DNA of 64,000 nucleotides from Schizochytrium sp. TIO01 (lineage: Eukaryota; Sar; Bigyra; Thraustochytrida; Thraustochytriidae), in contig SMSO01000032.1 in assembly GCA_004764695.1 (NCBI GenBank), forward strand, positions 1,138,501 through 1,202,500, given 5' to 3'. The position numbers and the translations under genes are program-made. Numbering within the stretch: position 1 is the first letter of the stretch; every line of letters starts with the position of its first letter. Of this stretch, positions 9,095 through 58,737 are shown piece after piece. The notes beneath the pieces are model-generated. The model saw only the letters and a list, made by a program, of their open reading frames with translations, was not told where the DNA came from and ran no database searches.

Positions 9095-10402
9095 TTATAG
9101 TTTAGGAGGAGAAATGATCGTTCCGTAGACAATATTGCTAAATAGCGTGCGCAAAGGAACGCGAGTCTCGTCGAGGCTCAAAACCTGTGTGAAGTACATG
9201 ACCAACATGTCTTCCTTTGGATCACAAAGGAAAATAGTGTTGGCTGCGCCTGACCAATAGAATTGACCAATGCTAGATTGCAAGCCGCTTAATGTCGGGT
9301 CTTGTTGAACAGCAAAACCAAGTCCAAAACCAAGACCAGGTTTGGCTAACGCGGAGGCATAGCCTGGAGTGGTGAGTTCTTGAAGATCCTTATTGCCCGG
9401 CAAATGATTCTGCACAGCCAACTCAAACGTCTTGCGTCCGAGCAGACGCTGTCCATCCAGCTCGCCCTTATTGAGGCAAAATTGGGCAAATCTCGCGTAA
9501 TCCCGGAATGTTGAAACCAAACCGTGACCTGCATGAATAATATTTTTTCGCTTGGTGTAATCTCCAGACTTGTTCTGAATTTCAGTCATATCGAACCTAC
9601 TTCCATCTGGACGCTCACAATGGAGGCTCACAAGTTCTTCACGAGTCTCGTCATCCATTTGAAACATCGTGTGACGCATGTCAAGAGGTTCAAAAACCCG
9701 GATTCGAAGAAACTCTGGTAGAGTCTGCCCTGAAATTACCTCAATAACGCGTCCCAGGAGCTCTACGTGATAACCATAGTTGAACTTCGCCCCAGGTTGG
9801 CAACAAAGAGGAAGGGTGGACAGTCGGTCTACAAGCATCTCCAGCGTCTCGTTCAAATGAGCAGCTTCGCGATCCGACTCGCGGTAAATAGGGTCCACCG
9901 CATTCTCTGGGCTCAGCATAAACCCATACGAAAGACCACCAGTATGCGTAAACAAATGTCGCATAGTGATATCTTGCTTGCAGGCAACAGGTTCTGTGCC
10001 TTCGACTTCAAGTACGCGCAAGTTCTCCTTTTTCCATTTGGACCCAAGATACAAATGGGCAGGTTGATCCAAGGTCAGCTTTCCTTCCTCCATGAGCAAA
10101 AGAAGAGCAAGGGAGGTGATTGGCTTTGTCATTGAATATATGCGAAAGCAAGAGTCAGGTTCGAGGGGCGTCCCCTTTTCAGTCGAGGCATGACCAGTAC
10201 CTTTATAGTATACCACCTTGCCATGCCTTGCAACCAAAGCTCCGGCCATGGGAAAAGCATATCCATCGGTCTTATTTACGGAGTACTCAAGGAAGGCATC
10301 AATTCGTTGAAGGGCCGATGAACAAATCCCTACAGACTCTGGGCTCTCTGCCCAAGGCAATCCGACGTCTTCTCCAGTCCAATCTAATGCCATACTTGAC
10401 AT
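9095..10402 (-). CDS. Beta-lactamase-fold serine hydrolase, intact paralogue
   Basis: Intact 435-residue member of the beta-lactamase-related serine hydrolase family. The open frame extends six codons further to a TTG with a TAG immediately upstream, so I take the first ATG at 10402 (MSSMALDWTGEDVGLPWAES). The SxxK catalytic motif is SMTK at residues 90-93. The Tyr motif lies in FNYGYHVE (Tyr near 209). The C-terminus holds GLGFGLGFAV and FYWSGAAN, giving the usual fold length. Such proteins are esterases, peptidases or D-amino-acid-handling enzymes; the sequence alone does not say which. It is closely similar to the gene 460 bp downstream, in the same orientation, so the two are a recent tandem duplication. 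No presequence is seen here, so the copies may occupy different compartments. Confidence 0.92.
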   Translation of the reverse strand: MSSMALDWTGEDVGLPWAESPESVGICSSALQRIDAFLEYSVNKTDGYAFPMAGALVARHGKVVYYKGTGHASTEKGTPLEPDSCFRIYSMTKPITSLALLLLMEEGKLTLDQPAHLYLGSKWKKENLRVLEVEGTEPVACKQDITMRHLFTHTGGLSYGFMLSPENAVDPIYRESDREAAHLNETLEMLVDRLSTLPLCCQPGAKFNYGYHVELLGRVIEVISGQTLPEFLRIRVFEPLDMRHTMFQMDDETREELVSLHCERPDGSRFDMTEIQNKSGDYTKRKNIIHAGHGLVSTFRDYARFAQFCLNKGELDGQRLLGRKTFELAVQNHLPGNKDLQELTTPGYASALAKPGLGFGLGFAVQQDPTLSGLQSSIGQFYWSGAANTIFLCDPKEDMLVMYFTQVLSLDETRVPLRTLFSNIVYGTIISPPKL

Positions 10403-33976: not shown

Positions 33977-36900
33977 TTAGCAGCCCAAGCAGTTCCGTTT
34001 GGCTGATTTCTTAAATTGATCTTCTTCGCGGTGAGGCCGAAGTTCCTCAGGGAAATTCATACGCTTACGTTCCATATATTGAAGATAGCATCGTTCTACA
34101 ATAACAGCTGCGCGCTTTTCACGTTCGTTTTCAATAATGTTTGGTCGGGATCCCGGGCCATAGCTGACCAAGACCCCGCCAGATGGAACGAGCGGCTCAC
34201 GGACCTTCTCATGTTTGTTTTTAGGTCTCAGAAATGGTATCATCTGGACGACTTGCTTGCCCTGATTAATGACGTACTCATGCATTTGAGCAAGAATAGC
34301 ACGCACAATCTTATCATAGTATCGATTCTGAAATTTGTGCGATGTAATCGCCTCGTAGTAACCGTTGGATAAGTCAAAGCTAAAGTCCTCAAGACGAGAG
34401 AAGCGCTTAATCAAACCATAGTATGCCATAGGAATGCCAATGTAGTTGAGTGTGTCCTCAAGCTCTGATTCAGAGCCCAAGCTAACAGAGGTGATAAAGG
34501 CAGTTGGAGATACACGAATTCTCTCACAAAATATTGTGTCCTGCGGTGGCACTGAAATATTGTTTGTTGCATCGTTGACAAGCCACTCCACCTCTGAATA
34601 AGAGGTTGTTTGATTCTCGAATCCAAGAACAGCACCTTCGCCTTCGATTGAACCTGATTCCTCTGCTCCTCCTAAAATCGGGGTCATGACTTGGAAGAGT
34701 CCACCCAACAGATTCGAGTCGAGCTTGACTTCAGTCTTATGCATAGCAATCGTAAGAAGTTTGACTATATCAAATGAAGACGACGCGCCACCAGATTCAT
34801 AAGCAAGTTGAATACGGAGGAAGCTATGAATTGCACGATGCCGCCGCAAACGATCTGACAAAAGGATGGTACGGCTTACTGCGCGCTTTGACACTGCACA
34901 TAATAGTGCCTCGCGTTCATGTTCCTGAATTACTTTAGGTTTGGGCGGTCGTGAATACATCACAATGGGATATTTGGCTTGTACCTGGGAGGAATCAATC
35001 TGGAAATGACCCACAGCGAATTCAGCCGTTGTAACGCTCTTGTTTGTCGTTCCTAGCTCCGGAACCTCCTCGAGAGCGCATTCGAAATGAATTCTTTGTG
35101 CGCAAACATACATCACTTCTAGGCCTCTAGTACTGCTAAAAACCGAAAGACATGCACTACTGATTTCAAACAGAACCTCCACCCAGGGATCTCGTGGCAT
35201 GAGTCTCCTCACAAACCGATCCAGTGTTGCATGCTCTTCCTCTTGCGCTTTTCTGCGTGCACGCTTTGTCATCTCCGAAATGACAACACTAGATCGGAGT
35301 CCATAGGTGCGCACGCTAAGGGCAAGGTCCTTTCCGGACCGTTGGGGAAATGCGGTGACCAAGCCAGCCTTATAGCGGATAGCTTTGGCATAGTCAAGGT
35401 CTGGGCTGCCATCCTTTCGAAGAGGAATAATTAGCACCTGCGTTCGCAAGCTGTCCTTGGGTGGAATGTCAAGCGGTATTGATAACTCCACTCCAGGTTC
35501 CACAACATCAGGTGGAAATGCGTTTCTGTAGAGCTTGTATGAACTAGGCAGCGGGCGAAAACAACGTTTTGCTGCCGCGCGTAAGCCAATCCCACGCGAT
35601 GGAATTTGCACAATCTTGAAAGATTGATTAGTCATCTTGTTGCGAACTGAGTAGTCAACCTCATCCACATCAAGAGTACGAAAGATAATCATTTGCGCAG
35701 GCATAGATTCATTTGCATCAACCCAAATCCGGGTGTCTCGCTTCCTTTCTTTTCCTGAGCGAAGCTGCAGCGCAAAATCGTCCAAGTCTTCGAGTTTAAT
35801 AGGCTCGGACCAAAGCGCTCCGGAGACAGCAAGGCGAACTTGCACGTGCTCGGTTGCCGTAAAAACTTTCCTCGAGGGATCGTCACGAATTTGAAAACGA
35901 GTACCAGGTGTAAGCTGGTAGTGGAAGCAAAATACGTTCACATCAGAAAGGTCATTTGGGTCGACTTGGAGAGCTGGATCCCGACCATCAAGAAGGAGTG
36001 CAGTACAATCTGGCAGTCCAGCTTGCTTAATCAACAGGGGTTCCTCGGTTACGTTTGCAACGCGGTATTTCGGACCAATCGTAAGCAGTGATGTGCGAGA
36101 GTAAGTTTGATGCATCGGTGTCAAAGAGATACCAATGTCTCTCCGAAAAGGTGACTCGAGGACCATCAGCTGGGTACTGAGACTGATTAGGCGTTCATCA
36201 ACAGGTACACCGGCAAGACTTAGCTCCAGATCAACTTGTGCCTCGCCCTTTCCATCAGCTAGCTTAATTTTCAAGGAGTGAGCTTCATCTCCTTGAATAA
36301 GAAGCTTTTCCAGAATCTTTGCGAGATCTAATTTGGCATCACCGATCACTCTCTGGTTGGAAGGATCCTTGGTATAGAGGCTGTCAAATGCCTGAGCATT
36401 CAGTGAAGTGTAACCAGAAGAGCTAGCAGCAGAAATCGAAGTGGATGCTACATCCTCGGGAGACGTACTGGTACGACCACGGTGATGACTATGTTTAGAT
36501 CCAACTCGGGCGTTCGTTTCTTGGGTATCATCATTTGGGTCATCTTCTCCAGGTTGAGTGAATGAGGATGCGGGCTGTGCAGAATGCTCACTAAAACTTC
36601 GAAGCTCAAAGAGAACCTCGCCAGCAGGGCTGTCACTCTCTGATCCAGGAATATAAACGCTCATATGGCCTGACGAGAATGGCCATTTTCTCGTTGCGCC
36701 GCCAGGCACAGCTGCAGTATAGCTTTTGGTGGGTACTGGGTTGTCCTCTAAGTCAATAAACGAGCAGGAGAGAGCCACAGCGTTACCTTGAGTAATGTCC
36801 TCTGATAGACCTTGCACTTTGGAAGCCATTATAATTAAGTTCACGGCTGGGAAGTGTTTTGATCCTGGTAATTTGCTAGCAAACAACGGAAGGTAAATAG

Positions 36901-39900
36901 GCAAACCAGACTGCAGCTCCCGGCTTTCATCATCCATAATGAATTGTTTGGAGGTGGCTGTTTTGAAGACAACAGCGTCAGGGTCTTGAGATAAGCGAAC
37001 TTCACCAAAAATCTGTCGAGACTTGGGCGGAGCATATAGAGGCATTACAGTATGTGGAAGATGGTCATACACATGCATGCGCGTGTGTGAAAGCTCCAAC
37101 TTCTTTTTGCGGTCAGCAAGGACCACCTGGTAGTCTAGAATTACATCACTCTTATTGGCAATCCAAAAGGGTGCACAAATTATAAGGCGGCGGCCACCTC
37201 CATCTTGTGTGGGAGTACGTTCAACTTCAGCAGTGATCGTACTCACAGTTCGCGACGAGTCTGAGGCATCCTTAATAGGGGTTCCGAGAGAGCTAGGCTC
37301 AATCGGATCACTCCACGAAGTAGGGCCTTCTTCAAAATGAATACGCACGCGAACCTGGCCCACCATATCATCTTGACTTGCCATTTTACGTGGATCACTC
37401 CGACTAAAAAAGCTGGAGTCCCGCGCAGAATGATGTTTTGTCCAGTTGGGATCAAGATAATCAAGTAATGCTCCATCCATCTCGTGAAAAGGCACGCGCC
37501 CTCCCTTCAGCATCTTCACCTTATGCCGCCGCAAAACCTTCTCAGGGTTGCTCTTTTCGCATACCTCTAGAGAAATTTCGATCGGGTAGGAAAGCAAGTT
37601 TTCGAGGACGAGAGAAGGGTAGAAGCTAAAAACATGTTGTAAGTAACGCTTTGGACCTCCACGGGCAGCAGCGTTTCGTTTGTAGCCAAATTCAATTGTG
37701 AGACTGCCCTTCACTTCATCTTTGCTAACTCCCCGACCAGCCTCCAACATGAAGGTTTTCTTGATTACACCACGTGCAGTCTTTACAGCATGCCCAGCAG
37801 AAAACCAGCTTACAATATCCCGAACCTTGAGGGTGACGTAACCAAGAGGATCATTGGAGCTCAGAGCATCCCAGTCGATCACGCTAAAACGAATGTATTC
37901 TTGTTCAGAAAGTGGTCGATCACTTTCACCAAACCGAAAAGTTGATTTGTTTGCCCAAATAGGGTTTAAAGTGGCCTGGATATGAGGTGTCTGAAATTTC
38001 TCCACTACCTTGTTTCCCTTAAATGTTGCAACTGCAACAAACGGGTCGGATGAATTCGTAATATCGGCAGCCATGAGGTTCGACGCTTGGAGCACCTGAA
38101 CCGTGAGAATCTCCTTCATTTCAAATTTGTGAAGGGCATTTCGTTGAGTCAACATAACACACTCTAGCAGCTTTGGAACCCGCTCACGACCGTATTCAGC
38201 ATCCTCTAGCTCCTCAATATCTTCTCGGGACGCACAGCCACTCGGTTCGTTGTTATTGGCAGCACGAGGCGATGCCGAAGCGTAGGCAGCATCGATGCCG
38301 CCACTAGTTGGTCGATTCGGAAGAAAGCATACTCGACTTGCACCAACAAGGTCACTATCCAGATCTTCATTTTTGGATTGACTTTGCATAAGAAGATCAT
38401 TGATAACATTTCCTCGCTTGTCAAGAAGGTCATCCTGTGGCCGAAAGTTTTGAATTACACGCAGTCCCTGACCTCCTTCAAGGCTTACTAAAATACCAGA
38501 TGGGGCCCACGCATCAAGGACAGATTCGTTACTTCTCTTGGAATATCCACTGTCAATTGAAAGTGTTCGTCCTCTATTGTTCTGGTTTTTGTTGTTACTA
38601 GACTCGTCATTTACAGGTTCTCCGCGTTTATTTTTCTGTAAACGCTTCAAAGTTGGGCGATCCATCACTGGGCAAACTGAGAAACCTCGTTTTCCTCCCA
38701 ACGAAGGATCTAGCTGTTGAGCGTAGAGATATTTCAAAGGAATTGATTGCTCGTCACCTGGTGATAGAGTAAACATAGTCTTTTCATACAACTTTTCACC
38801 AGAGGATCGATGGCAAACAAAGCTTACTCGAAGCGGTACGATCGTTCGATTCTCCACGCGTATAGGTGTCTCTAAGAAGAGAACGTCTCCAGCTGAGGAT
38901 CGACCAATTTTCTGGACATTGGCCATTACCAGTAGAGAGTTTGTATTGCGATCGATGAAGTCGTACCCGCGTGAGTTTTTCCCCTTAACTTGAGCAGCGG
39001 ACATCCGTTTGGACTTGCGGCGCTCTTCACGCTCTGCTTCATCCTCCTCCGGTGACTTTGCCGGTGTTGTGCTGTCGTCAAACTCTTCGTCCTCGCTTGA
39101 CTCGCGAGTTGTTGACGATGCAGTGGTATGTTCATTTCTCTTCATCTCTTCTTCGTTTTGTGTCATCAAAGTTCGGCTATACTGGCCGTCAACTGTGACT
39201 GCATTAATGGTTTGAAGCATGAATTCCCCAGCGTTTTCAGACGGTGCGAGCCCAATCTGGTTGACTAAAGGCACCTGAACAACCTGGTCACGAGCCCCTT
39301 CGTTACTTGATGGGGCACGGCCCTCGTCATCCTCCGGTAGAGAATCACGGAGATCAGTAATACGGAACCCTAAAGCATGAACATCTAAGCCAGGAGGTTC
39401 CATTTCCGCACTTTCAAGCAGGGCAGGTACGAAAAAGTCTAGGAATTCGCGGAGATCAATTCCAGTTTCAGATGCATCGACGTTCTCGACTCCCTCATCA
39501 TCCATTTCTCCGATCGAATAAAGAACTTCCTCAACGCTGATAGGTTCACCATAGTGTGAGAGTGCATTCTGTAATTCAACACAGGATATTTCACCGCTAT
39601 TGTCTTCATCAATGAAACGAAAAAGATTTGTGAGATCTCGACGGAGATCTTCTTCTTCTTCTTTTCTGTCATCCTGATCTAACATAAATTCTTGCATTGC
39701 AAGTTTATGCCTACTTTTGATCTGCTCTTCAATATTAGTGCGCTCAGCTCTATATTCTGGATCATTCTCACGAGCCTCGCGGTTGCGTCGAACTGTATTT
39801 TGCAGATACTTAATTGTCTTGAACACAATTTTGCGCCTGTTCTCGCGCATATGTTGCAAGAGCTCCGCCATTTTGGCTCGAATACGGGATGTATCATGGA

Positions 39901-42900
39901 GATGCAGCCTACGAGCTTCACCTTCTTCCACAACGTATTGTTGCTTGTCACCACGGTATTTCAGATAGTTAGGCTTAGTGGAGTGATATTGGTCATCGGG
40001 ATGTGAAATTGGCCAGAGTTCCACTTTATGACCAGTTTCGTTTACAACCCAATTCGGAGTGTACATTCCATGCAGACGTTCGTCATCAATTGGAGTATAA
40101 GTCGGGTCCAGTGAGCGCATGAAGCTGACAACCGACCGCAAAAAAGCATCCGTAATATTCAAGTTGATGCGACGGGGCGCAATAGCTTGTAAGAGAAGGC
40201 CGCCGGTATCTGTGCTTCTCTCCGCCTGCAAAAGGAGTGACCAAGGCTCGATTAGAGGCTCCCATGCACGAACTAGCGTATTGTACGAAGTGCTTGTTGT
40301 AGAAACATAACCACGAACTTGCAAGTCGTCTGAGAAGAACGTACGCGAGCAACCAATGAGATGAAACTGTGCAAGGCTGAATCTCGCAAAAGGTTGGGGA
40401 TACCCATTCAGATTATTACCGATACCGAGCATCAATTGATTTACGTAGAGGTTCGCTTGATCAAATACTCGCTCTGTCTGACGGCTTTTGTTGGCTTGCT
40501 CAAGGAGCATTCCCAGAATCTCGGCATCTCGCTCGGTATTCCAATGACCAGGTACATCCCCTGGCAGGCGACGACGGAAGGCACTGGTGTCTAAACACAT
40601 TATAAACATTGGTGCAAAATCATGCAACATCCAAGGCGCCCATGCACTCTGAGTTCCGTCCACCTTCTTAGCAGCAGGGTTGGGTGCTGCATCGTTGGCT
40701 CTAAACCCTTGATGATTTTCCGGATAGCTTTCCGCAGGGTCATATTGTATATTCTCGAATTCATTGCCAACACCCTTCAAAGGTTTGGCGCTCTTGTTGT
40801 TCAGCTCTAAATTTGTGCCGATATCATCAAGGCCTGGATCACCTACAACCAGACCTTCATCATCACTGGATTCAGAATCTTCAGAATTTCTATCGCTTGC
40901 CCCCTCTTGACCAATTATGTTGGACTTAATGTCTTTCATGAGCTTTATATCCGATTCTGTAAGGATCCGAACAGGAGCTACGCGTTTCTTCTTCCGCACA
41001 GGTGTAAAGTAGTCTTGAGACGAATCACTATCAGAAGACCGTGCGGAGTTTATAGATGCTCCATGATCACGTTTGTTTCCCTTTGAGTCAGATCTGTTCT
41101 TCTGATCCATTTGTTCGGCCACAGATGTAACGTTCTGCTCGGGATAGAACTCCGCATAAAGTTCCATCTGCTTTTTCTCAACATCCATGAGGAAGATGAT
41201 ATCGCCAGTGTCAAATCGAGTCTCCAAACCGTCCATGCGCAACTCCATCACACGGACAGTGGCATAATTGTCTCCACGGGCCTTTTGAAGTTCTTCACGC
41301 ATTACTTGCTGTGCCAAAACAGTGTGAGAGTTCACACCCCAGATGTCCTCTGCTTTGATGTCCTTCAGGCTATTTGAATTGTGCTGGGCCGAATCTTGCT
41401 TCTGTTCGTCAGTGTGTCTCGCAGAGATACTTGCGTTGGGATCAAGCTCAGTGCCCTTTTCTTCTTCCTCCTCGTTTCCCACTTTAGGCCGTTGGTGTTG
41501 TTGAAGTTTGGGCCTTTCATGGCTAATATCTTCATGTGGTTCATGATCCAGTTTGAAGTTCTGATAGTTTTCTTCAGCGTTGCGGGTAAGTGAAGACGCT
41601 GAGCTCATGGCCACGTCAAAGTGACTTCCACTTGCATGGTCAAAGAAGCCATTTAGTTCGTCCTCTGAAGCAGAACCGCCACTGTCACCCATATGCCGAA
41701 GGCGATGAGCAAGACGCAAATCACGAGCCTTTTCAATTGGCTCGGTTTCAAGTTTAAAAACGACTGTGAATGGCTCTAGCACTACATTATCACCGGAAAA
41801 AAAGTCCTCTGGAATTTGCTGGAAGCGATTTCGGTCAATTTTCGTTGGGGCAATTCTTGCATCACAAGTGGCACGTAAGGACAGAGATTCATACGCTGGC
41901 AAACATGAATGATCGTGATCGAAGTCTCGCGCAATAGCATTGAACTTAATTTCTGACCCCACACGGAAAATGAGAGACTTGGGTGGGTACTTGTGTAATC
42001 TACGTTGGGACTCTTTACAGAGGGTATGTCTCCGCATGAAATGAAACTCAACTCTGGTTGTTCGAACAAGAACCTTGATTTCAGATACGGGAAGGATTGA
42101 GCCAGGCAAAGCTTTTTGCTGGTCCTGAGATGGCTCCACTTTTTTCTCAAAATCGGCGTCAGGGTTCTCCTCCAGTTTCATTTCTTCCTCTTTTTGCTTC
42201 GCATTGCGATGATCCTGCGCCTTTTCTACTACTGCAGGCGTTTCCACGCCAGAGTCATCAAGAAGACTGAATGCAGATGCCAGCTTAAGACCAAAGTGCA
42301 TTAACGGCGTAACTAAGACAAAAAGACCCTCAAGGTCCATTCCTACCCGCAAAGAGGGTACTGGATCAAGGTTATCAGTTAAGCGCAACCTTTCTGCTTC
42401 TGCTTCCCGCTGATAAATGATGGATAGTCTAAACTGGGGACGATTTTCCTGGCGCCGAAGCTTGTCAAGTCTGCGTCGCTCCATAGAAGATAAAGTATCC
42501 TCCAGTTCAGGATACACATCCGTAAGGTGGTTTCCAATAAGAGCATGGTCTTGCCATTTGTCTTCAATCGCGAATTGTTCTGCCTGCAAGAAGAACTTAA
42601 TTAGGGGTAGGCCGCAATCATACAATGAGTATGACGCATCCATTTTGACGCCTTCAACAGACATGCAGAGGAACTCGTGAGTTCGTTTTTGATGGCGCTT
42701 AGGTTTAACGAATGACATTCGAATTTCCATTTTGTCCATGTAAAATCCAAAGGCGAGGTCTAGTTCGCGTAGTTTAGATTTTGGTATTTGGCGGACCTTC
42801 GCTTGTTTTCTACAGTCATCATTTGGTTTCTTGAGATTGCCACTGCGAGGTTGTCGCGAGCCATTCCCCTCTTCATCAGTGGTAGTATCTTGCGGAGAGC

Positions 42901-45900
42901 TGTCTTCAATGAGTTCGTCATCGGTTGTAACGAACGAATGGAAATCCTCCAGATTAGTAGCAATTGAACCAGTGTGCCCAGACTCACCTGCATGGGTCAG
43001 GCGCGGACGCTCAGCTACACTGTAGAAACTTTCTTTATCCTGGTCAGCCAGTGATAGTTGCTCAGACTTGCTATCGTCAGATGGTTCCTCCTTCTCAACC
43101 ATCGAAAGGGCGGCTTTAGCCTTAAGAGGAGCTTGTTGCTCCATGATTGTTGTTTCAAGGAGAGAAGGTCCGACCTTCTGAAGGTCATTCAAACGAACTT
43201 CCTGAGCTTGGTAAATACTGAGTGCACTCACCAAGGAATCAGAAGCACCGTTATTTAGCTGCATCGACATGACTGGTTTGCCCATGGAAATTTCAATCGT
43301 CTTCTTAGCGTCATTCAGATAGTAATCCTTAGGGATACGCACAGTTGGAAACGCTACATCGAGCAACATAGTAACATCGAGAGTGACTGGGATGTTGGAT
43401 TGTGGCCGAGGCGTCTCTCCGCATGGTTCTAGCCACATTCGCACCTGAATTGCACCTTCGTGTGACTCCTCGTCATCTTCGTCGTTTGTGCAATAGTGGA
43501 CCTTTGATTTCTTCTTCGTGGTGCTTGCATCCGCATCCATGTTCAGTGGAATCCAAACCGTCACGCTTTTTGCAGGATTAATCTCGGCTTGTGATGCAGG
43601 ACGTTGGCTATAGCGTTTCGAAGAAGACCTTCGCCTCAGCGGTGTTTCATCCATATATTGTTCAGCCTCTCGAGGTGCACGCACAATTTGCTCATAGAGC
43701 TCGTGAAGAGGAACATGTGCAACGCCTAGAAAGTCATGAGCCCACTGACCACCAAAATCCTCATCCATGACCTCGAAATCAAGAGTGTCTGGGGAAGCGG
43801 GTCCCAAGGCCGAGCCCGGTAAAGGGCCAAATTTGAATTGCGAAGTCTGAGGCTTGTCCTCCCAGCTAGGATTTAACTCGCGAGATACGGTGTGAGTTCG
43901 TGATTCCTGATGATGGCATTTAAGTATACAGTATGGATCGCTGGTACCCGTGATATCCGCTGCTGGTAACCCACATGCGCGTATGACCTGGACATTAAGA
44001 TAGGCAATATTCTGTTGCAGTATGGGTGGGAAAGACGCAAGTCCGAATGGATCAGCTTGGGTCCACTGACCCCATTCCTTTTGTGGTGGATCTTGAGCCA
44101 TTTGTCCTTGCTGTTGCCAGGTTGGAGGCATAAGCAGTGTTGGCTGCATTTGATCAGCATCATTTTCAAAGTCAAGCTCTTTTGTTTCACTTTTTTCACT
44201 ACCTTGCTCACTCGCATCTTCCATATATTCATCTTGCTCAATCTCGAACCCAGGCGATGATACATCAACACAGACACGCACCCGGACATTCTCTTCATTT
44301 GAGTTGCACCAAAAGAGCATACTCCGAGGCCCACTTCGTGCATTCGACAAAATTCGTTTCAAAACGACACTTTCGACACGGACACTCTTCTTGGTGCTAA
44401 GGTCGAAGGTCATGTTGATCTTTGTGTCAGGCTTTGTTGCCTCGAGCTGGAAGAGGTTTTGGGTCTCACCCAAAGTGATCATTGACTCGCTTTGCAAACT
44501 ACCTTCAAGACCAAGTTGCTCTGCACCACATGTAATAGTTGTCTTAACCACCTTAGCATTTTTCGGCAGTCCTTGAATCTCAGAGACTGAAACATCCAGT
44601 AGAATCTTTTCACATCGCCATGAAGGGGACTTTTTGGTCGATGACACGTCGAGATCTCGATTCCAATCATACTGGGCCAGGCCTTCAGCAGAATAAGCAT
44701 GAAACAAGGTTTTAGACCATGAAACAAGCTCGGGACGCATGTTCATGTAAAATTGGGGCACAGTGAGTCCAATTGCAGCGTCAAAGTACATCACACTTTG
44801 GTTGACGAGAGCCTCAAATTCAAAGAGAGTGTCGCATGCACGTTTCTTAGACTTGGCAAGAGCTTCCGCAGGCGTGCGAGCGGTACTACTTTCAGAAGGT
44901 ACGCTCTCAACCTGGAGACGTACCTTTCCGTAACCGCCGGGAAGATCGTACCACTCTTCATATTTTCGGTACATATGACTTCCAATACGAGAGAATTCGC
45001 TCTTCGGAATAGCGCGGACTGGCAGTTTGATATCAACAGCACACAGCAGCAGATCGTTTTCAATGGGATCAACGGCAAGCTCACGGCGGCGTACGACCCG
45101 TCGTACCCAACCCAAATTATCTTGTCTTTGCTTCACCTGCACTTGAATGTTTGCGGTGCGTTCGTTTCGACCATGTCCCACAAAAAACTCAAGCGGTGGA
45201 ACACGGTTGCGCTGCACTGAGAAATCGTACTCAGCAAAACCTTGTTTTGCCTTCATTGTAGAACCATCAATCAAACCGGTTGTCTGTTCATCGAGAGTAT
45301 CTCGAGATTCGTCAAGGTATAGAATATTACAGTACGGACTGAGCGAAGGAGCCGCATCACCTTCGGCTAGCTGTAAAGACATGACACGAACACGAAATTT
45401 AGACTCTGCTAAATCGTGTCCGATTGTCTTCGAACTCTTAGGACGCGGCTGGCTCCCATAGGCAGGGTTGCGTGAACCTTCGTCGTCATCTTCGTCTTCA
45501 TCATCGGCATCATGGTTTTCCTGGTCGTGTTGAGACGCCTTGTTATCAGGATTATGTCTATTCTCATCTTCCACAAAGCCGTGTGGTGCTAGAAGCGCGA
45601 GTTTTTCTTCACCTTTGATAACATCTGCATTCACTTTACGAATACCAAAATTGATGGCACGGAGACCAATCCACGGGTTCATCGCACCCTCAACTGCCAG
45701 GGCCGAGCACATTTCACGCATTGTAAAAACACAGCGTGGGGCATCACTTGAGGAGGTGGGGTTCTGAGAAAAGAGCGTAATCTGCACACTTTGTACAGTT
45801 ACAGAAAGCGCAAAAACATCAGGTTTGGCATCGGCACGGTCACGGTCAGCCGCACTTTGGGTAAGGTTCTCAGACTGTCCTTGCGACTTCAAGGTGGGAG

Positions 45901-47686
45901 TCATTGCTGATATCCCTTTAGCTAGTCGGGCTGGAGCGAGATCACACATTGTACAGAACTCCTTAAAGTCTATACGACCATTCCGATTTGTGTCAAAAGT
46001 TTGGACCAGGTCTTTGACCTTTTTAGTGCTTAGAGTAGTCCCAGCCATTGCAAGACCAACTTGAAGTTCAACAGCATCAATTTCCCCGCTCTTGTCTTTA
46101 TCAATGGCATCAAAGATTTTGCGTCGATGTCTAAGAAGCTTTTTGGCATCAACATTGGTTTCGTTTGAGATACCGAGGGCGTTGGAGAGGTCTCGTGCAG
46201 TCTTTGCCATTGTCTTTAATTCCTCGATAGACTTAGGTTGAATGTTCTGTCCATTTTGCTGTGTAGTAGAAGGATCTTCACTCGTACCCAAAGCCCAGCT
46301 GATCCATGCAGAGGCAGTGCCAGAAACCTGATTCATGACTGATGGCTGAATAGCTTCGTTCATGTCGTCAAGAATCTTCTCACGTTGCCTTTTTGCCACC
46401 ACTGCAGAAACACTTTGTACAATTGTGCGAATAGTCTCTGGATGGGCACGGAGTTCACGCTGCTCGAGCCAAGACAGGCCTGCAAGCAAGGCATCGACTC
46501 CGGTGGCAGCATTTGCAGGTTTCTTCGGTTTTTGAGTTTCCGGACCTACATCTTGCTTTCCCTTTTCGAACATTTTTTGGTAGATACGAAAGCATTCGCC
46601 TTGATCATCTGAAGAGATTCCTGTTTGTACAAGTTGATTAAAGCGTTCTTCACACCATAATTTCCAGCGCACTTGATGGGTGAGACTGTCGCCAATGTAA
46701 ATCAGTGCTGCAACATCTTCAGGTGCAGCTTTCATTACAACACGGCTGAGGCGCATCTCAACGATGCCGAGTGTTGGGCGCGGGTCAGCAGCAAGATTGA
46801 AAGCAAGAATGGACTCTGCATTGAACTTTTCGATCAGCTTAATGCGAAGCGGGCGGCCTTTCTTAATATTTTGTTGTAAATAAACCTCGATACCTTCGAC
46901 TAGCATTTGCTTCTTCACAATGCGTTCTGTGGTACCCTGGAGAGGCTCCACAAGGATCCCGCCCACATAGACTTCCCGTTCTGCCTTTGGCACAGAGTTA
47001 GACGCAAGGTCAATGTCATCGCCTGGCTGCACATCCTCCGCCGCTTGGTCCTGTACTTCAGAAGTGCTTCGCGCCACCTCCACATGCGGCGATAGGTTCG
47101 TATTCTCAAGTTTGAACCCTTGAACAGTAAGGCCAATATGACCACTACGATCCGAAGTTTCAAAGTGATAGGCAGCCTCTATCTTTCTTACATGAAGCTC
47201 GAAATTGCCAGCGACGCGCACAGCAAGATTTTTCACCAAACCCATTAGTGATGATTCTGAGGTATCAGGTACTAGATCACCATCCATAGATCCCAGTTTT
47301 GTCTCAACAGCTTGAAGAGCTTCGTCTCGAATGCCTTGGATGAGCGCAAGTTTGACAGCCTTTAAGGCTTCAAATTCAGCGCGTTCGTCCCATTCCTCTT
47401 CAGGACGAGCCTCCATGATAACTTTGAGGCTGTCTACATTGACACTGATGGCATAGCTCGGATTAAGGCTGAATAGTTGCAGAGGAGCCACAGAAATATG
47501 AACACGATCTAGAGAGCATGTTCTCACCTTGGCAGCAAGATTACCAGGAATAACCTCAGGTTTGAGCTCTAGATTGTGCACCCGGAACTCACCAACACCT
47601 TGGACTTTGAGAGATCCATATGTGAAGTACTCATTGAGGTATTTTTTCACGACCTTCTCTAAGACAGAGCCGACAAGATTTGACAT
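33977..47686 (-). CDS. Giant VPS13-like bridge lipid-transfer protein with EF-hands and C2 domains
   Basis: A 13.7-kb intronless gene for 4,569 residues. The open frame extends to a TTG at 47734; the first ATG at 47686 gives MSNLVGSVLEKVVKKYLNEY, a typical chorein start. VPS13 proteins form long hydrophobic grooves that carry lipids between membranes at contact sites. Landmarks in order: chorein N-terminus (1-330); an EF-hand pair with canonical loops DKDKSGEIDAVE (529-540) and DTNRNGRIDFKE (565-576), 36 residues apart; C2 domain one (about 1230-1326); an EF-hand loop DEDNSGEISCVE (2693-2704) with a degenerate partner; C2 domain two (about 3194-3291); a VAB/SHR-BD-like region starting at APFWIANKSD (about 3498); and a C-terminal VPS13-like segment (about 4200-4500). 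The acidic C2 loops (ITGTSDPYC, ITNSSDPFV) look calcium-competent. The C-terminus is NCLGC. Inference: calcium-controlled lipid transfer. Which VPS13 paralogue it represents is unclear. Confidence 0.88.
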   Translation of the reverse strand: MSNLVGSVLEKVVKKYLNEYFTYGSLKVQGVGEFRVHNLELKPEVIPGNLAAKVRTCSLDRVHISVAPLQLFSLNPSYAISVNVDSLKVIMEARPEEEWDERAEFEALKAVKLALIQGIRDEALQAVETKLGSMDGDLVPDTSESSLMGLVKNLAVRVAGNFELHVRKIEAAYHFETSDRSGHIGLTVQGFKLENTNLSPHVEVARSTSEVQDQAAEDVQPGDDIDLASNSVPKAEREVYVGGILVEPLQGTTERIVKKQMLVEGIEVYLQQNIKKGRPLRIKLIEKFNAESILAFNLAADPRPTLGIVEMRLSRVVMKAAPEDVAALIYIGDSLTHQVRWKLWCEERFNQLVQTGISSDDQGECFRIYQKMFEKGKQDVGPETQKPKKPANAATGVDALLAGLSWLEQRELRAHPETIRTIVQSVSAVVAKRQREKILDDMNEAIQPSVMNQVSGTASAWISWALGTSEDPSTTQQNGQNIQPKSIEELKTMAKTARDLSNALGISNETNVDAKKLLRHRRKIFDAIDKDKSGEIDAVELQVGLAMAGTTLSTKKVKDLVQTFDTNRNGRIDFKEFCTMCDLAPARLAKGISAMTPTLKSQGQSENLTQSAADRDRADAKPDVFALSVTVQSVQITLFSQNPTSSSDAPRCVFTMREMCSALAVEGAMNPWIGLRAINFGIRKVNADVIKGEEKLALLAPHGFVEDENRHNPDNKASQHDQENHDADDEDEDDDEGSRNPAYGSQPRPKSSKTIGHDLAESKFRVRVMSLQLAEGDAAPSLSPYCNILYLDESRDTLDEQTTGLIDGSTMKAKQGFAEYDFSVQRNRVPPLEFFVGHGRNERTANIQVQVKQRQDNLGWVRRVVRRRELAVDPIENDLLLCAVDIKLPVRAIPKSEFSRIGSHMYRKYEEWYDLPGGYGKVRLQVESVPSESSTARTPAEALAKSKKRACDTLFEFEALVNQSVMYFDAAIGLTVPQFYMNMRPELVSWSKTLFHAYSAEGLAQYDWNRDLDVSSTKKSPSWRCEKILLDVSVSEIQGLPKNAKVVKTTITCGAEQLGLEGSLQSESMITLGETQNLFQLEATKPDTKINMTFDLSTKKSVRVESVVLKRILSNARSGPRSMLFWCNSNEENVRVRVCVDVSSPGFEIEQDEYMEDASEQGSEKSETKELDFENDADQMQPTLLMPPTWQQQGQMAQDPPQKEWGQWTQADPFGLASFPPILQQNIAYLNVQVIRACGLPAADITGTSDPYCILKCHHQESRTHTVSRELNPSWEDKPQTSQFKFGPLPGSALGPASPDTLDFEVMDEDFGGQWAHDFLGVAHVPLHELYEQIVRAPREAEQYMDETPLRRRSSSKRYSQRPASQAEINPAKSVTVWIPLNMDADASTTKKKSKVHYCTNDEDDEESHEGAIQVRMWLEPCGETPRPQSNIPVTLDVTMLLDVAFPTVRIPKDYYLNDAKKTIEISMGKPVMSMQLNNGASDSLVSALSIYQAQEVRLNDLQKVGPSLLETTIMEQQAPLKAKAALSMVEKEEPSDDSKSEQLSLADQDKESFYSVAERPRLTHAGESGHTGSIATNLEDFHSFVTTDDELIEDSSPQDTTTDEEGNGSRQPRSGNLKKPNDDCRKQAKVRQIPKSKLRELDLAFGFYMDKMEIRMSFVKPKRHQKRTHEFLCMSVEGVKMDASYSLYDCGLPLIKFFLQAEQFAIEDKWQDHALIGNHLTDVYPELEDTLSSMERRRLDKLRRQENRPQFRLSIIYQREAEAERLRLTDNLDPVPSLRVGMDLEGLFVLVTPLMHFGLKLASAFSLLDDSGVETPAVVEKAQDHRNAKQKEEEMKLEENPDADFEKKVEPSQDQQKALPGSILPVSEIKVLVRTTRVEFHFMRRHTLCKESQRRLHKYPPKSLIFRVGSEIKFNAIARDFDHDHSCLPAYESLSLRATCDARIAPTKIDRNRFQQIPEDFFSGDNVVLEPFTVVFKLETEPIEKARDLRLAHRLRHMGDSGGSASEDELNGFFDHASGSHFDVAMSSASSLTRNAEENYQNFKLDHEPHEDISHERPKLQQHQRPKVGNEEEEEKGTELDPNASISARHTDEQKQDSAQHNSNSLKDIKAEDIWGVNSHTVLAQQVMREELQKARGDNYATVRVMELRMDGLETRFDTGDIIFLMDVEKKQMELYAEFYPEQNVTSVAEQMDQKNRSDSKGNKRDHGASINSARSSDSDSSQDYFTPVRKKKRVAPVRILTESDIKLMKDIKSNIIGQEGASDRNSEDSESSDDEGLVVGDPGLDDIGTNLELNNKSAKPLKGVGNEFENIQYDPAESYPENHQGFRANDAAPNPAAKKVDGTQSAWAPWMLHDFAPMFIMCLDTSAFRRRLPGDVPGHWNTERDAEILGMLLEQANKSRQTERVFDQANLYVNQLMLGIGNNLNGYPQPFARFSLAQFHLIGCSRTFFSDDLQVRGYVSTTSTSYNTLVRAWEPLIEPWSLLLQAERSTDTGGLLLQAIAPRRINLNITDAFLRSVVSFMRSLDPTYTPIDDERLHGMYTPNWVVNETGHKVELWPISHPDDQYHSTKPNYLKYRGDKQQYVVEEGEARRLHLHDTSRIRAKMAELLQHMRENRRKIVFKTIKYLQNTVRRNREARENDPEYRAERTNIEEQIKSRHKLAMQEFMLDQDDRKEEEEDLRRDLTNLFRFIDEDNSGEISCVELQNALSHYGEPISVEEVLYSIGEMDDEGVENVDASETGIDLREFLDFFVPALLESAEMEPPGLDVHALGFRITDLRDSLPEDDEGRAPSSNEGARDQVVQVPLVNQIGLAPSENAGEFMLQTINAVTVDGQYSRTLMTQNEEEMKRNEHTTASSTTRESSEDEEFDDSTTPAKSPEEDEAEREERRKSKRMSAAQVKGKNSRGYDFIDRNTNSLLVMANVQKIGRSSAGDVLFLETPIRVENRTIVPLRVSFVCHRSSGEKLYEKTMFTLSPGDEQSIPLKYLYAQQLDPSLGGKRGFSVCPVMDRPTLKRLQKNKRGEPVNDESSNNKNQNNRGRTLSIDSGYSKRSNESVLDAWAPSGILVSLEGGQGLRVIQNFRPQDDLLDKRGNVINDLLMQSQSKNEDLDSDLVGASRVCFLPNRPTSGGIDAAYASASPRAANNNEPSGCASREDIEELEDAEYGRERVPKLLECVMLTQRNALHKFEMKEILTVQVLQASNLMAADITNSSDPFVAVATFKGNKVVEKFQTPHIQATLNPIWANKSTFRFGESDRPLSEQEYIRFSVIDWDALSSNDPLGYVTLKVRDIVSWFSAGHAVKTARGVIKKTFMLEAGRGVSKDEVKGSLTIEFGYKRNAAARGGPKRYLQHVFSFYPSLVLENLLSYPIEISLEVCEKSNPEKVLRRHKVKMLKGGRVPFHEMDGALLDYLDPNWTKHHSARDSSFFSRSDPRKMASQDDMVGQVRVRIHFEEGPTSWSDPIEPSSLGTPIKDASDSSRTVSTITAEVERTPTQDGGGRRLIICAPFWIANKSDVILDYQVVLADRKKKLELSHTRMHVYDHLPHTVMPLYAPPKSRQIFGEVRLSQDPDAVVFKTATSKQFIMDDESRELQSGLPIYLPLFASKLPGSKHFPAVNLIIMASKVQGLSEDITQGNAVALSCSFIDLEDNPVPTKSYTAAVPGGATRKWPFSSGHMSVYIPGSESDSPAGEVLFELRSFSEHSAQPASSFTQPGEDDPNDDTQETNARVGSKHSHHRGRTSTSPEDVASTSISAASSSGYTSLNAQAFDSLYTKDPSNQRVIGDAKLDLAKILEKLLIQGDEAHSLKIKLADGKGEAQVDLELSLAGVPVDERLISLSTQLMVLESPFRRDIGISLTPMHQTYSRTSLLTIGPKYRVANVTEEPLLIKQAGLPDCTALLLDGRDPALQVDPNDLSDVNVFCFHYQLTPGTRFQIRDDPSRKVFTATEHVQVRLAVSGALWSEPIKLEDLDDFALQLRSGKERKRDTRIWVDANESMPAQMIIFRTLDVDEVDYSVRNKMTNQSFKIVQIPSRGIGLRAAAKRCFRPLPSSYKLYRNAFPPDVVEPGVELSIPLDIPPKDSLRTQVLIIPLRKDGSPDLDYAKAIRYKAGLVTAFPQRSGKDLALSVRTYGLRSSVVISEMTKRARRKAQEEEHATLDRFVRRLMPRDPWVEVLFEISSACLSVFSSTRGLEVMYVCAQRIHFECALEEVPELGTTNKSVTTAEFAVGHFQIDSSQVQAKYPIVMYSRPPKPKVIQEHEREALLCAVSKRAVSRTILLSDRLRRHRAIHSFLRIQLAYESGGASSSFDIVKLLTIAMHKTEVKLDSNLLGGLFQVMTPILGGAEESGSIEGEGAVLGFENQTTSYSEVEWLVNDATNNISVPPQDTIFCERIRVSPTAFITSVSLGSESELEDTLNYIGIPMAYYGLIKRFSRLEDFSFDLSNGYYEAITSHKFQNRYYDKIVRAILAQMHEYVINQGKQVVQMIPFLRPKNKHEKVREPLVPSGGVLVSYGPGSRPNIIENEREKRAAVIVERCYLQYMERKRMNFPEELRPHREEDQFKKSAKRNCLGC

Positions 47687-48359
47687 TTTCTTTGAATATG
47701 CACAGCTAGCTCCAGCGTCACCGCTGTGCCACAAGTTTTAAGCTTACTCCAACTCCAATAATCAGCTGCTTTGTTGAAGCCTTTAGAAATACTACTGATT
47801 ACGGCAACCTCTCCAACTATATTGGCTGATTGATGCCGTCAATCAATGGCTTAGCTCTGAAATGGCAGAATTGCCTTGATGAAGGAGGGTGCACGAGACT
47901 GCAGAGCCTCTGAGTTCAAGCAGCTTCGAAACCGCAATCCCTTCTCTAGTTCCACCCCAAACTGTCTTTGCCTAGTGTCCAGAACCCTGGCCTGCCCAAA
48001 AGTTTTCCGCCTTCGAGACTAATGTAGTCAAAGCAGGTTGGTGGCACTGAAGACGTCGATGCCGATGCCAAAGCAGTCGAACTCTGACTCTGCGCTTTTA
48101 AAAAGCAGTCAAATATATATATATATGTACAGACAGGATCCCGTGCCTCAGAGGCTCTGCACTGTGAACTCAACCACAGGACACTGCTTGTGGCCTTCAC
48201 AGAGCGAGTGTGGATCTTAGCGAGCGCTCTTCGCACGAGCGTGCCGCCTTGAAGTTTGTCAATTGTAGAAGAGGTAAGGGTAAGCGAGGGCGAAGTTGCC
48301 TCCGCTTGATGCTTGTTTGCTTGTTTGCTTCTTTGTTTCTGCTTCTTTGTCTTTTCTTA

Positions 48360-48484
48360 TTGTTTGTTTGTTTGTTTGTTTGTTTGTTTGTTTGTTTGTT
48401 TGTTTGTTTGTTTGTTTGTTTGTTTGTTTGTTTGTTTGTTTGTTTGTTTGTTTGTTTGTTTGTTTGTTTGTTTGTTTGTTTGTT
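48360..48484. repeat. TTTG microsatellite, about 31 units
   Basis: About 125 bp of nearly perfect TTTG. Apparent Cys/Leu/Phe/Val open frames through it on the plus strand are artefacts of the repeat. Confidence 0.95.
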
Positions 48485-48570
48485 TTCTTCCATTGTTTCG
48501 CTGTTTGTCATTCTTTCATTCATTCTTTCTTCTCTCCCTCTCTTAAACAAGTTCTCTCTTTCTTTTCTCG

Positions 48571-52074: not shown

Positions 52075-53541
52075 ATGCCGCCTCGTGTGTGGCTTGAGAT
52101 TGGCGTGAACGGCAAGTCCGTAGGCACTTTAAGATGCGACCTCTTCGGCGAGCGTGCTCCCCGCACTGTGGAGAACTTCCGCGCTCTGTGTACGGGTGAG
52201 AAAGGATCCTCTCCTGACGGCCAGCGCCTCCACTTCAAGGCATCCACTTTTCACAGGCTCATCCCAGGCTTCATGATCCAAGGCGGGGACATTGTCTCAA
52301 ATGATGGAACGGGCTCAGTGTCTATTTACGGTGAGACCTTTGGAGACGAAGATTACATTCGCAGAGGAAAACACGCTTTGAGAGGCGCTCTATCCATGGC
52401 AAATTCGGGCCCTAATTCGAATGGATCTCAGTTCTTCATCCTCTTTGACCGTGCGCCGCATCTGGATGGCAAGCACGTGGTCTTTGGCCAGGTCTCTACA
52501 GGTGCACAGGTCTTGGATATTTTGGAGGGCCTTCGGACTGGTCCTGGGGACAAGCCTCTTGCGAAAGTGGAAATCCTTGACTGTGGAGAATGCGAAGACG
52601 ATGAGGATGACCTGAGATCGGATAATCCTGCAGATGCCGCTTCGCATGCACAAGATGTGGTACAACAGACCATGGAGAGGCATGCATCGAACCTTCGCCG
52701 AGATGCCGAAAGGCTTAACAAGGCTGCCGAAGGGAAATCTTTTCCAATTCCAACAGCGGCAAATCCAACGGCAGTCTACGAGGATGGAGAAGCTCGCAGG
52801 GCTGCACTTGAGCGCCTGGATCAGGCTCAGGATGCAGCTCGGGCAGCAGCTTCAGGCCAGGATGGAGGTTACGCTGGTAAGATGAGCGAACGACAGCGCA
52901 AGCTGATGGAACTTCGACAGCGCAAGGCCCAAGCTCGCAGTGAAAACAGCAAGCAAGTTATGGCAGAACATGAAAGAGATGCAAAGTCTAAAGCTTCTGC
53001 TGGCAAGGAAGCTGCGAACGAACGCTGGAAACGCACTGAGGAAGAACGCAAAAAACAGCTTGAACTGCTTGGCGTTGGCGAGGACAAAGCGTACCTTCTG
53101 GATACCGCAGAAAAGGCTGCTCGTGTGCAAGCTAGCAAGCAGAAGAAAGTTGACAATATCCTTGCTGCGAAGCAGGCTCATCCGTTTGATGATTCTACCA
53201 TTCTTCGTGCTTATGATAAGCAGGTTCAGAAACTTAAACAGCTCGATGGCGATGACGACCAAGCTCAGGCGAAGCGGGAGCGTACGAGCCTTCGCGAGAG
53301 TGAGCTTTCATATGGCTCGAATGGCGCGGTTTCGGATTCAGCTAAGGACCGCATGATGCAAACTTTTGCAGAGTCAGAAAACCCTCGCAAGCGTCTGCGC
53401 AACACGAGTGCATTGCTGGAGGGCGAGGTTGTGAACGGTATCAATGGTCTCAATGAGAAGATCAGCCGGAACCTTTCCAAGGCCTATGACAAGTACACCA
53501 CTGAGATTCGCCAGAATTTTGAGCGTGGTACAGCCCTGTGA
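52075..53541 (+). CDS. Cyclophilin-SYF2 fusion protein (peptidyl-prolyl isomerase plus splicing factor)
   Basis: One uninterrupted frame of 488 residues. The open frame begins at a TTG (52066); the first ATG is 52075 (MPPRVWLEIGVNGKSVG). Residues 1-172 are a complete cyclophilin domain: FHRLIPGFMIQGGD (catalytic Arg61, Phe66, Gln69), MANSGPNSNGSQFFI (Ala109, Asn110, Gln119) and HLDGKHVVFG. The Trp of cyclophilin A that binds cyclosporin is His129 here, as in Cyp40-type proteins. After an acidic linker, residues 270-488 match SYF2: MSERQRKLMELRQRK at the start, the charged helix with GEDKAYLL, SYGSNGAVSDSAKDRM, and the signature end KYTTEIRQNFERGTAL. SYF2 is a small Prp19/NTC-associated spliceosome protein, normally a separate chain of roughly 240 residues. 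Cyclophilins are also common in spliceosomes, so the fusion is functionally coherent. No intron is seen. Confidence 0.93.
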   Translation: MPPRVWLEIGVNGKSVGTLRCDLFGERAPRTVENFRALCTGEKGSSPDGQRLHFKASTFHRLIPGFMIQGGDIVSNDGTGSVSIYGETFGDEDYIRRGKHALRGALSMANSGPNSNGSQFFILFDRAPHLDGKHVVFGQVSTGAQVLDILEGLRTGPGDKPLAKVEILDCGECEDDEDDLRSDNPADAASHAQDVVQQTMERHASNLRRDAERLNKAAEGKSFPIPTAANPTAVYEDGEARRAALERLDQAQDAARAAASGQDGGYAGKMSERQRKLMELRQRKAQARSENSKQVMAEHERDAKSKASAGKEAANERWKRTEEERKKQLELLGVGEDKAYLLDTAEKAARVQASKQKKVDNILAAKQAHPFDDSTILRAYDKQVQKLKQLDGDDDQAQAKRERTSLRESELSYGSNGAVSDSAKDRMMQTFAESENPRKRLRNTSALLEGEVVNGINGLNEKISRNLSKAYDKYTTEIRQNFERGTAL

Positions 53542-54074: not shown

Positions 54075-54221
54075 ATGTCTGACCAAGGTGGACAACACCC
54101 AGGTGGAGTAGCATCAAGACCTCCCATTCTTCGGCAAGGTCTTTCTCCAAACCCGCAGCAGCAGTCTTCGTCCGTAAGTCAGGATAGAGGTCCATGGAAA
54201 GGAGGCCCATCTCCTCTTCCT

Positions 54222-54257
<36 letters not shown>

Positions 54258-55658
54258 CAACAGCAATACTACCAGCAACAACATCCATTTGACGCGCAAA
54301 AAACTCTGACTATGAACGAACCCAAGGCCACTCTTCCGCGGCCAATTGCTGCAGCATCTTCTGGCCCGGGCAACGTCAACGATTTCACAAATAGCTCCGG
54401 AGCAGGTATCGGTAGCTCAAAAGATTTCTACATGAGCTATCTCCCACAGGACGAGCGTATATTGCAAGTATGGGGTACTAATGGCGTAATTCCAGATAGT
54501 CGGTCCACAGAAGAACTTGAAGATGAACTTAAACAACATCCTGATGATTCTGAGGACGACCTCCTCTTCGTACTCTGCTCGTGGACATGGCGGGGATGTG
54601 TGGAGCAAGTCTTGAGTGTACTAGATCGCGATTCAAACCGATTCAAGTCTGAGCCGTTCCGAGTTCTCCGTGCATCCTTACTCATGAAATTGGGCAGGCA
54701 AAAGGAAGCAACTGAAATTGTCGAGCTCTTGCAGCAAAGTAAAACAATTGCCGCAAAGATCCTGTGCGCAGTCGTTACCTTCGAATGGAATGAGCGTTCT
54801 ACGGCAGTCGACATGTTGTTCAAACTGCAGGGCCAGTTGAAACAAATTGCTGAAAACTTCTCTCTGGCTGAAACCCAAGAGGTTTCTCACACACTATTTG
54901 ACACCTTCCACGAACCTTTGACTCCAGAAGCTGCCAGACGATGGCATCAGCAAGTAATGGCTCTCCTTGTCTCCTGCTATGCCACTACCGGAAACTACCT
55001 TGTGGCTCTTGAACTATGTAATTCTGCGCTTGATGAACTTTCCCAAATTTCCCTCGAAGATGACAGCCTGGGCGATGCTGCATCTATCAATGAAGCATAT
55101 GCTCCTACTCTGTTGCAAATCGCACGTCTCCGTTTACAAATGGGTGACGTCGAAGGAGCACGTTGTGTGCTTGAGGACCTTCAGACATATGACAACTTGA
55201 ATTGGACCAACGGAAGTGGAGTCCAGGTTCTTCGGGGACTATGTGAGTTTGGTGAGGGGAATATGGAGGAGGCTAAAGAAACTTTCGCCAAACTCATAAG
55301 CCAGGTAAATGGGCCAGACTCCCCAGCTGAAGATGTAGTGCAGCCCTATTCACGAAAAGATATGATGTCTGCCTTAGTAGATGTCCAAGAGCCATTGGCA
55401 GCTACTCTGGCGAATAACCTTGCGCTTTGCCAATTAAACTTGTGCGACTTAGAGGGGGCCATGGGTGTCTTGGAGGATTGCATCCGTGCGAACCCAATTC
55501 GAAACATGCATCGCACCCTAGTGTTTAACCTTTGTACATTGTATGACTTGGCTCGATCGAAAGAGCAAAGTCGTCAAGCAAAACTTGACTTGCAAAGACT
55601 TGCAGAAATGTTGAAAATTGGCCAGAGGTTTGATGCACAAAAAGATTTACGTCTATGA
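54075..55658 (+). CDS. TRAPPC12: TRAPP complex subunit 12 (TRAPPC12) homologue
   Basis: A 527-residue intronless gene; ATG 54075 (MSDQGGQHPGG). The N-terminal 110 residues are disordered and include a Gln tract at about 50-69 encoded by CAG/CAA repeats. From about residue 115 the protein is helical, TPR-like: DDLLFVLCSWTWRGCVEQVL, then repeats rich in Ala, Leu and Gln. The C-terminal part (TLANNLALCQLNLCDLEGAM, then LVFNLCTLYDLA) matches the conserved end of TRAPPC12, a metazoan/fungal-type TRAPPIII-associated tethering subunit acting in ER-Golgi and autophagy traffic. The human protein is longer at its N-terminus. The alternative is another TPR protein, but the order of the C-terminal motifs favours TRAPPC12. 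Confidence 0.85.
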
Positions 55659-57882: not shown

Positions 57883-58737
57883 TCATGGGTTTGCGGCGGC
57901 CTCGCGCTCAGCAGAGTATTTGTCGTGGTGGTTGTAAGTATCACCAGAGAAGACCTGCGTCCAGCCGTTCTCCTTCACCAAATATACGTTGTTGACACCA
58001 CCGGAGTAGGCATCACGGTAGGTAGCATGGTAGATGGCGCGCTTGCCAAGCTCGATGGCATCCTCGTCAGAGAGATCGTAGTGGTAGCTTGAGTCAAGCA
58101 CACCATAAGCGTAAGTACCACCAGAACCAACACAGAAGAAGGGCTTATCAGCATCTGCCTTGAGGCGCGTACCATCGTTATCAACATAAAAGAGCTGGGG
58201 TCCACGCTTATCCCAGCCAGTGATCATGGTTCCCATGGACAGGCCCATGCCCTTGTAGTAGTTCATCGTGTTTGCCAACAGCTTAGAAGCTGCTGCGACG
58301 GAAATGCGTTCCTTGTTGCGAAGCTCGAACATGCGGCACTGCATACCAAGGTTACGCTCCCAGAAGAGACAGTCGGCAGCACCACCAGCCATGGTACCGA
58401 GCAGGTACGGGTTGATCTCAATGACCTTCTTCACAGTCTGAGAGCCAATGTATGATCCCTGAGAGGCACGAGAATCCACGGAAACAATAACACCGCCCTT
58501 AAAGATAAAAGCCAAAGTAGTTGTACCCTTGGAGAACTTCACTCGCTGGCCATTGTCTTCATACGTACCAGGACTGAAGTTCTGCGAAACGAACTCGGCA
58601 GGCATCTGCACACCGGGCAGAGCGAAGGCCATCTCGTTGTGCTGGAGGCTCATGGCACCGGCCATGTCCATGCGAGCAGGGCCAGAGCCCATAGAGTCGC
58701 GGAAGAGACCGCGGGAGGGGGCTTGCAGAAGATCCAT
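57883..58737 (-). CDS. PSMB5: 20S proteasome subunit beta5 (chymotrypsin-like)
   Basis: 284 residues, intronless, ATG 58737. The catalytic beta5 subunit of the 20S core cuts after hydrophobic residues. The propeptide (1-71) ends SKG, and cleavage at Gly71-Thr72 exposes Thr1 of the mature chain ([11 protein letters not shown]). In mature numbering, Thr1, Asp17 (residue 88) and Lys33 (residue 104) are all present, so the active site is complete. The pocket has Met45 (residue 116) and Ala49 (120), the beta5 signature that separates it from beta1 and beta2. The length suits the eukaryotic subunit. Assignment is firm. Confidence 0.97.

Follow-up and report, generated by a model that had tools for sequence, protein, structure and literature searches.

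Proteins that carry a cyclophilin and the splicing factor SYF2 in one chain are already known from several lineages. In 2009, Krucken et al. reported "Cyps with SYF2 domain" from Toxoplasma, Plasmodium, Babesia, Theileria, and Cryptosporidium muris and named comparable ones from Tetrahymena, Paramecium, and Ostreococcus tauri (PMC2713222). Tetrahymena CSY1 was listed by Gene deFuser in 2011 (PMC3143110), and a SYF2 region is given for PfCyP81 and PvCyP65 (PMC11357558). In the Chlamydomonas C* complex, Syf2 is placed in the NTC-related group together with PPIL1 (PMC11833078); the word "cyclophilin" is absent from that paper. These papers, and the others named below by PMC number, are cited for the passages that bear on this subject. 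An initial sequence-only reading of the present locus had left it open whether such a fusion was described; it was (PMC2713222 and PMC3143110), and a homologous chain, 8xi2_M, forms part of a solved spliceosome. We found no account of a cyclophilin-SYF2 fusion for thraustochytrids or stramenopiles in the literature searched, which has most subscription journals outside it, and neither SYF2 nor cyclophilin is mentioned in PMC12221091. Besides, SYF2 peptide patterns matched 24 stretches of genome contigs and 1 of a viral contig, none of which was confirmed as a relative.

The open frame and its two domains

We translated the window, i.e., the whole 64-kb stretch of thraustochytrid DNA that was analyzed, and found a frame of 488 codons plus a stop at 52075-53541 (+) without an internal stop. 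The nearest in-frame stop upstream is a TGA at 52033, and the 488-residue translation has KYTTEIRQNFERGTAL as its C-terminal end. The features are as follows.

52075..53541 (+), complete frame of the cyclophilin-SYF2 fusion, readable with no intron (488 codons and a stop; Pfam and frame statistics)
52075..52590 (+), cyclophilin (PPIase) domain, residues 1-172 (PF00160 at residues 16-171; PDB matches; alignment)
52591..52812 (+), linker, residues 173-246, acidic first and then Ala-rich, without a Pfam domain
52813..53535 (+), full-length SYF2-homologous region, residues 247-487 (phmmer against human SYF2 5mqf_N, residues 10-242 of 243)
53104..53523 (+), SYF2 domain by Pfam, residues 344-483 (covering model positions 15-154 of 154)

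Single-base shuffling of the ORF, done 1000 times, left a longest open run in that frame of 79 codons on average and 183 at most, compared with 488 in the real sequence. With a codon-usage model trained on three other ORFs of the same window, the given frame was the best of six in all five pieces (the cyclophilin, two versions of the linker, and two SYF2 pieces). The margin in the linker was small, at 0.13 versus 0.02 for residues 173-245 and 0.16 versus 0.06 for residues 173-269. Since the two domains lie in a single open frame, one mRNA would be expected. Pfam detected Pro_isomerase (residues 16-171; E value, 1.9e-43; 148.9 bits; cutoff, 21.7) and SYF2 (residues 344-483; E value, 7e-15; 56.1 bits; cutoff, 23.5) and nothing further at an E value of ≤1. 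The cyclophilin-SYF2 fusion is thus confirmed as real in the DNA.

The cyclophilin domain matches 167 distinct PDB sequences at an E value of ≤0.001. Nine active-site residues of CypA (R55, F60, M61, Q63, A101, F113, W121, L122, and H126 in CypA numbering) were mapped here through other aligned cyclophilins, human CypA itself being absent from the alignment. Eight of the nine are kept (R61, F66, M67, Q69, A109, F121, L130, and H134, corresponding to R55, F60, M61, Q63, A101, F113, L122, and H126), and W121 is replaced by H129, which may lower cyclosporin binding. The insertion SPDGQRLH at residues 46-53 corresponds to the "divergent loop"; the XXGKXLH loop of divergent cyclophilins appears as PDGQRLH (residues 47-53), with K replaced by Q, and their Cys-40/Cys-168 pair is matched by C39 and C170. 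In redox-switch divergent cyclophilins, Glu-83 and Lys-48 link the inserted loop to the active site (PMC4552658). The corresponding positions are V82 and P47 in the fusion, whereas both residues are kept in 8xi2_M. We therefore reject assignment as a redox-switched divergent-loop cyclophilin, because the loop and the Cys pair are present but the coupling Glu and Lys are changed.

The SYF2 homology of the second half extends beyond the Pfam match, in that residues 247-487 or so align with residues 10-242 of the 243 residues of human SYF2 5mqf_N (phmmer E value, 5e-11). Residues 173-488 match five PDB sequences at an E value of ≤1, i.e., four named SYF2 and the fusion chain 8xi2_M. A search of the whole genome (64.1 Mb in 37 contigs) for a separate SYF2 gene, as the sequence-only reading had proposed, returned the fusion gene as the single SYF2 match. 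With full-length SYF2 homology and a single copy, the protein can be regarded as the SYF2 orthologue, and the cyclophilin is tied to a spliceosome component because no second SYF2 match occurs in the genome. The linker between the domains is Ala/Asp rich, about 75 to 95 residues long, and has no clear sequence conservation with that of 8xi2_M. Most of what the sequence-only reading had said of the protein agrees with these results: one uninterrupted frame joins the two partners, with 488 codons and both Pfam domains over their cutoffs; residues 1-172 hold a complete cyclophilin domain; and the catalytic Arg61 and Gln69 are both present. Its full SYF2 at residues 270-488 was correct as to full-length homology, and the profile search that it named gave a match within that interval, but the start lies nearer residue 247.

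Surroundings of the fusion and its cyclophilin relatives

Housekeeping genes are found near the fusion in the window: Utp14 at 30874-33672 (+), a TPR protein resembling epsilon-COP by eye at 54075-55658 (+), and a proteasome subunit at 57883-58737 (-). In a single ORF of 4585 residues at 33977-47734 (-), an EF-hand pair occurs together with C2 domains and with a VAB (VPS13 adaptor-binding) match; we read it as a lipid-transfer protein of the VPS13 type to which EF-hands and C2 domains have been added. Two adjoining ORFs at 7404-8630 (-) and 9095-10420 (-) both match the Pfam Beta-lactamase (serine hydrolase) family, and our guess is that they are a LACTB/esterase-type pair. The ORFs at 13593-18878 (+; 1761 residues) and 4277-6577 (+; 766 residues) gave no Pfam match at an E value of ≤1e-5, and Rfam and ARAGORN scans of the 64-kb window gave no matches. 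A TTGT tetranucleotide array lies at 48313-48485, with 31.5 perfect copies over 48360-48485; the open frames that span it look spurious.

Elsewhere in the genome, a profile search found a PfaA-type polyunsaturated fatty acid (PUFA) synthase that was over the family cutoff together with its in-frame neighbors. That contig also carries a ketosynthase ORF (2044 residues) in divergent orientation. The PfaA-type family was also matched in 11 of 14 control genomes, in none of them over the cutoff. This arrangement is that of OrfA/OrfB in thraustochytrids and would by itself point to a thraustochytrid-like genome.

The genome search proceeded in six frames and by single exons, with counts to be read as minima; it gave at least 20 cyclophilin matches, with L016 and L021 being apparently exons of one gene. 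A Pfam scan that left out L016 to L021 covered 13 of the 20 matches besides the fusion and showed one with WD40 (PPWD1 type), one with FKBP and TPR, one with RRM (PPIL4 type), and ten with cyclophilin alone. The best PDB match of L011 was human PPIH. The PPIL1, PPIL2-like, PPIL3-like, and CWC27-like types were named by sequence features that we take to be theirs, and the PPIL2-like name of L003 is weak because no U-box was found in the scanned piece. The match L005 (G000:C24, about 3010250-3011730) is a dual immunophilin ORF with the order FKBP-TPR-cyclophilin, an architecture (FCBP) listed for Toxoplasma, Theileria, and Babesia (PMC2713222). Among other splicing factors, ISY1 is present (E value, 4.6e-56), and an N-terminal match to Aquarius was weaker (23.6 bits alone and 40.3 bits with neighbors; cutoff, 26.6).

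Phylogenetic analysis was performed with 17 cyclophilin domains (the window domain, seven other matches from the same genome, and nine PDB chains). The fused cyclophilin sided with CypA, PPIH, and PPIE, away from PPIL1, PPIL2-like, and PPWD1 (support, 100/99); its finer position in this tree was not settled, with a branch length of 1.13 against a median of 0.26. Because this branch is long, catalysis of the fused domain may be relaxed. Grouping with 8xi2_M was neither found nor rejected in the same tree (lnL, 4.43 lower; AU p, 0.20). The identity of the fused cyclophilin was 51.5% to the Chlamydomonas domain and 42 to 54% to the 15 other rows. Furthermore, the Chlamydomonas domain scored 277 bits with wheat CypA as the query and 167.6 bits with the fused cyclophilin as the query, values that would fit either an independent fusion or fast change in this lineage. 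In the tree of Krucken et al., their own family was not monophyletic because of PfCyp80.9, which notwithstanding they treated it as one by domain architecture (PMC2713222).

Proposed role in the spliceosome and alternatives

It is very probable that the fusion is the organism's SYF2 with an N-terminal cyclophilin of the CypA/PPIH side, the SYF2 half entering the spliceosome as an NTC-related component and the linker tethering a prolyl isomerase. Incorporation into the spliceosome is most likely by analogy with the homologues. The SYF2 half would seat the protein in catalytic spliceosome complexes, as SYF2 does elsewhere; the linker of about 75 to 95 residues would let the prolyl isomerase reach and probe proline loops in its vicinity; and the tethered isomerase may bind or isomerize proline-containing loops of adjoining subunits. 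For the fused domain, an active isomerase, a flexible linker, and any substrate are points that we only infer. The covalent link may also serve to deliver isomerase activity at fixed stoichiometry, as the sequence-only reading supposed. In the human C complex, SYF2 contacts the back face of PPIL1, and human PPIE is located near SYF1 and AQR (PMC6315705).

A mis-joined or chance frame of this kind might also arise from a fault of assembly or from two neighboring genes that merely happen to be in phase, and the small codon-usage margin in the linker would accord with that. Nevertheless, 488 codons are free of in-frame stops, no other SYF2 match occurs in the genome, and the domain order recurs in 8xi2_M, which belongs to a purified spliceosome; on these grounds we reject this explanation, which we consider exceedingly improbable. 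Alternatively, the cyclophilin domain may be mainly a binding or scaffolding module, a reader of proline loops that strengthens the seat of SYF2 in the NTC, and not a working isomerase. Its long branch and the change of Trp121 to His are in line with such a module, and binding of PPIH to Prp3/Prp4 is reported to be independent of enzymatic activity (PMC2713222), whereas conservation of eight of the nine examined active-site positions speaks against it. We regard the binding module as possible but rather doubtful.

The fusion might also take the place of PPIE, so that SYF2 would carry the isomerase that PPIE brings elsewhere. No PPIE-type gene (RRM plus cyclophilin) was found when the 20 cyclophilin and 81 RRM matches of the six-frame, single-exon search were compared by distance: within 9 kb there was one pair alone, that of the PPIL4-type gene, at 468 bases, and in the next pair, at 9.2 kb, the RRM is on the opposite strand from a complete FKBP-TPR-cyclophilin gene. 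The fusion protein itself does not have the PPIE architecture, as Pfam gives no RRM and places the cyclophilin at the N terminus. The presence of PPIH, PPWD1, and PPIL4 types, of PPIL1 as named by eye, and of ISY1 and, more weakly, Aquarius is in favor of a replacement, but the exon-by-exon counts are lower bounds, and the 17-row tree does not connect the fused cyclophilin with that of PPIE. To our knowledge, yeasts have a stand-alone SYF2 and no PPIE, and loss of PPIE therefore needs no fusion. PPIE-like Cyps are reported as absent from all apicomplexan genomes (PMC2713222), and PPIE is among the factors that human C* has beyond those of the Chlamydomonas complex (PMC11833078), although a protein missing from one structural model is not necessarily missing from the genome. 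In addition, human PPIE beside SYF1/AQR and SYF2 beside PPIL1 occupy different neighborhoods (PMC6315705). Because SYF2 sits by PPIL1, replacement would be possible only if the linker reaches the SYF1/AQR site or the domain works elsewhere. We consider such a replacement unlikely. The broader version, in which the tethered cyclophilin of SYF2 replaces PPIE in green algae, alveolates, and the thraustochytrid, the isomerase supply having been rewired by fusion, possibly repeatedly, and the domain here having adapted to one internal proline target, seems to us quite unlikely. Replacement of PPIE by the fusion is therefore a testable idea, though a weak one.

Under the preferred reading, namely, a SYF2 with a tethered prolyl isomerase, this natural covalent link between an isomerase and one position of the spliceosome could reveal the places at which individual cyclophilins act in the catalytic complex. 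The record adds a lineage, and no PPIE was found here by the distance comparison, as reported for apicomplexans.

Comparison with known cyclophilin-SYF2 proteins

The best PDB match of the whole fusion protein was 8XI2 chain M, listed as Syf2, of Chlamydomonas reinhardtii C* (563 amino acids; E value, 6.3e-60), with a cyclophilin at 4-172 and SYF2 at 336-560. The two share an N-terminal divergent-loop cyclophilin, a long linker, and a C-terminal SYF2, whose match had an E value of 1.8e-14. They differ in the linker, which is about 160 residues in 8XI2 chain M and about 75 to 95 here. Moreover, the algal chain keeps the Trp at CypA position 121, the Lys of the loop, and the Glu, each of which is changed in the fusion. 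Entire SYF2 parts align with the stand-alone SYF2 5mqf_N, 9esh_Y, and 8ro0_M, the latter two of which we take to be those of Schizosaccharomyces pombe and Caenorhabditis elegans. Such stand-alone chains have 229 to 243 residues and no cyclophilin; the view in the sequence-only reading that SYF2 and cyclophilins are separate elsewhere applies to them but not to the apicomplexan, ciliate, and algal fusions.

By description, the apicomplexan proteins (TgCyp66.2, PfCyp80.9, BbCyp57.3, PyCyp74, and others) share with ours a Cyp_ABH domain at the extreme N terminus, SYF2 near the C terminus, and a poorly conserved intervening region; they are 48.8 to 80.9 kDa, with six exons in Toxoplasma and a single exon in PfCyp80.9 (PMC2713222). 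Tetrahymena CSY1 is likewise, by description, a one-copy cyclophilin-SYF2 fusion (PMC3143110). The thraustochytrid protein has PF00160 at the N terminus (residues 16-171) and PF08231 SYF2 near the C terminus in the same frame; its Cyp_ABH-like status comes from the PF00160 match and the side taken in the tree, not from the cd01926 model. Judged by these domains, it is a member of the cyclophilin-SYF2 kind described in 2009 and, as a single gene, is ordinary for its family. What it adds to the cyclophilin-SYF2 proteins is a member from the thraustochytrid lineage.
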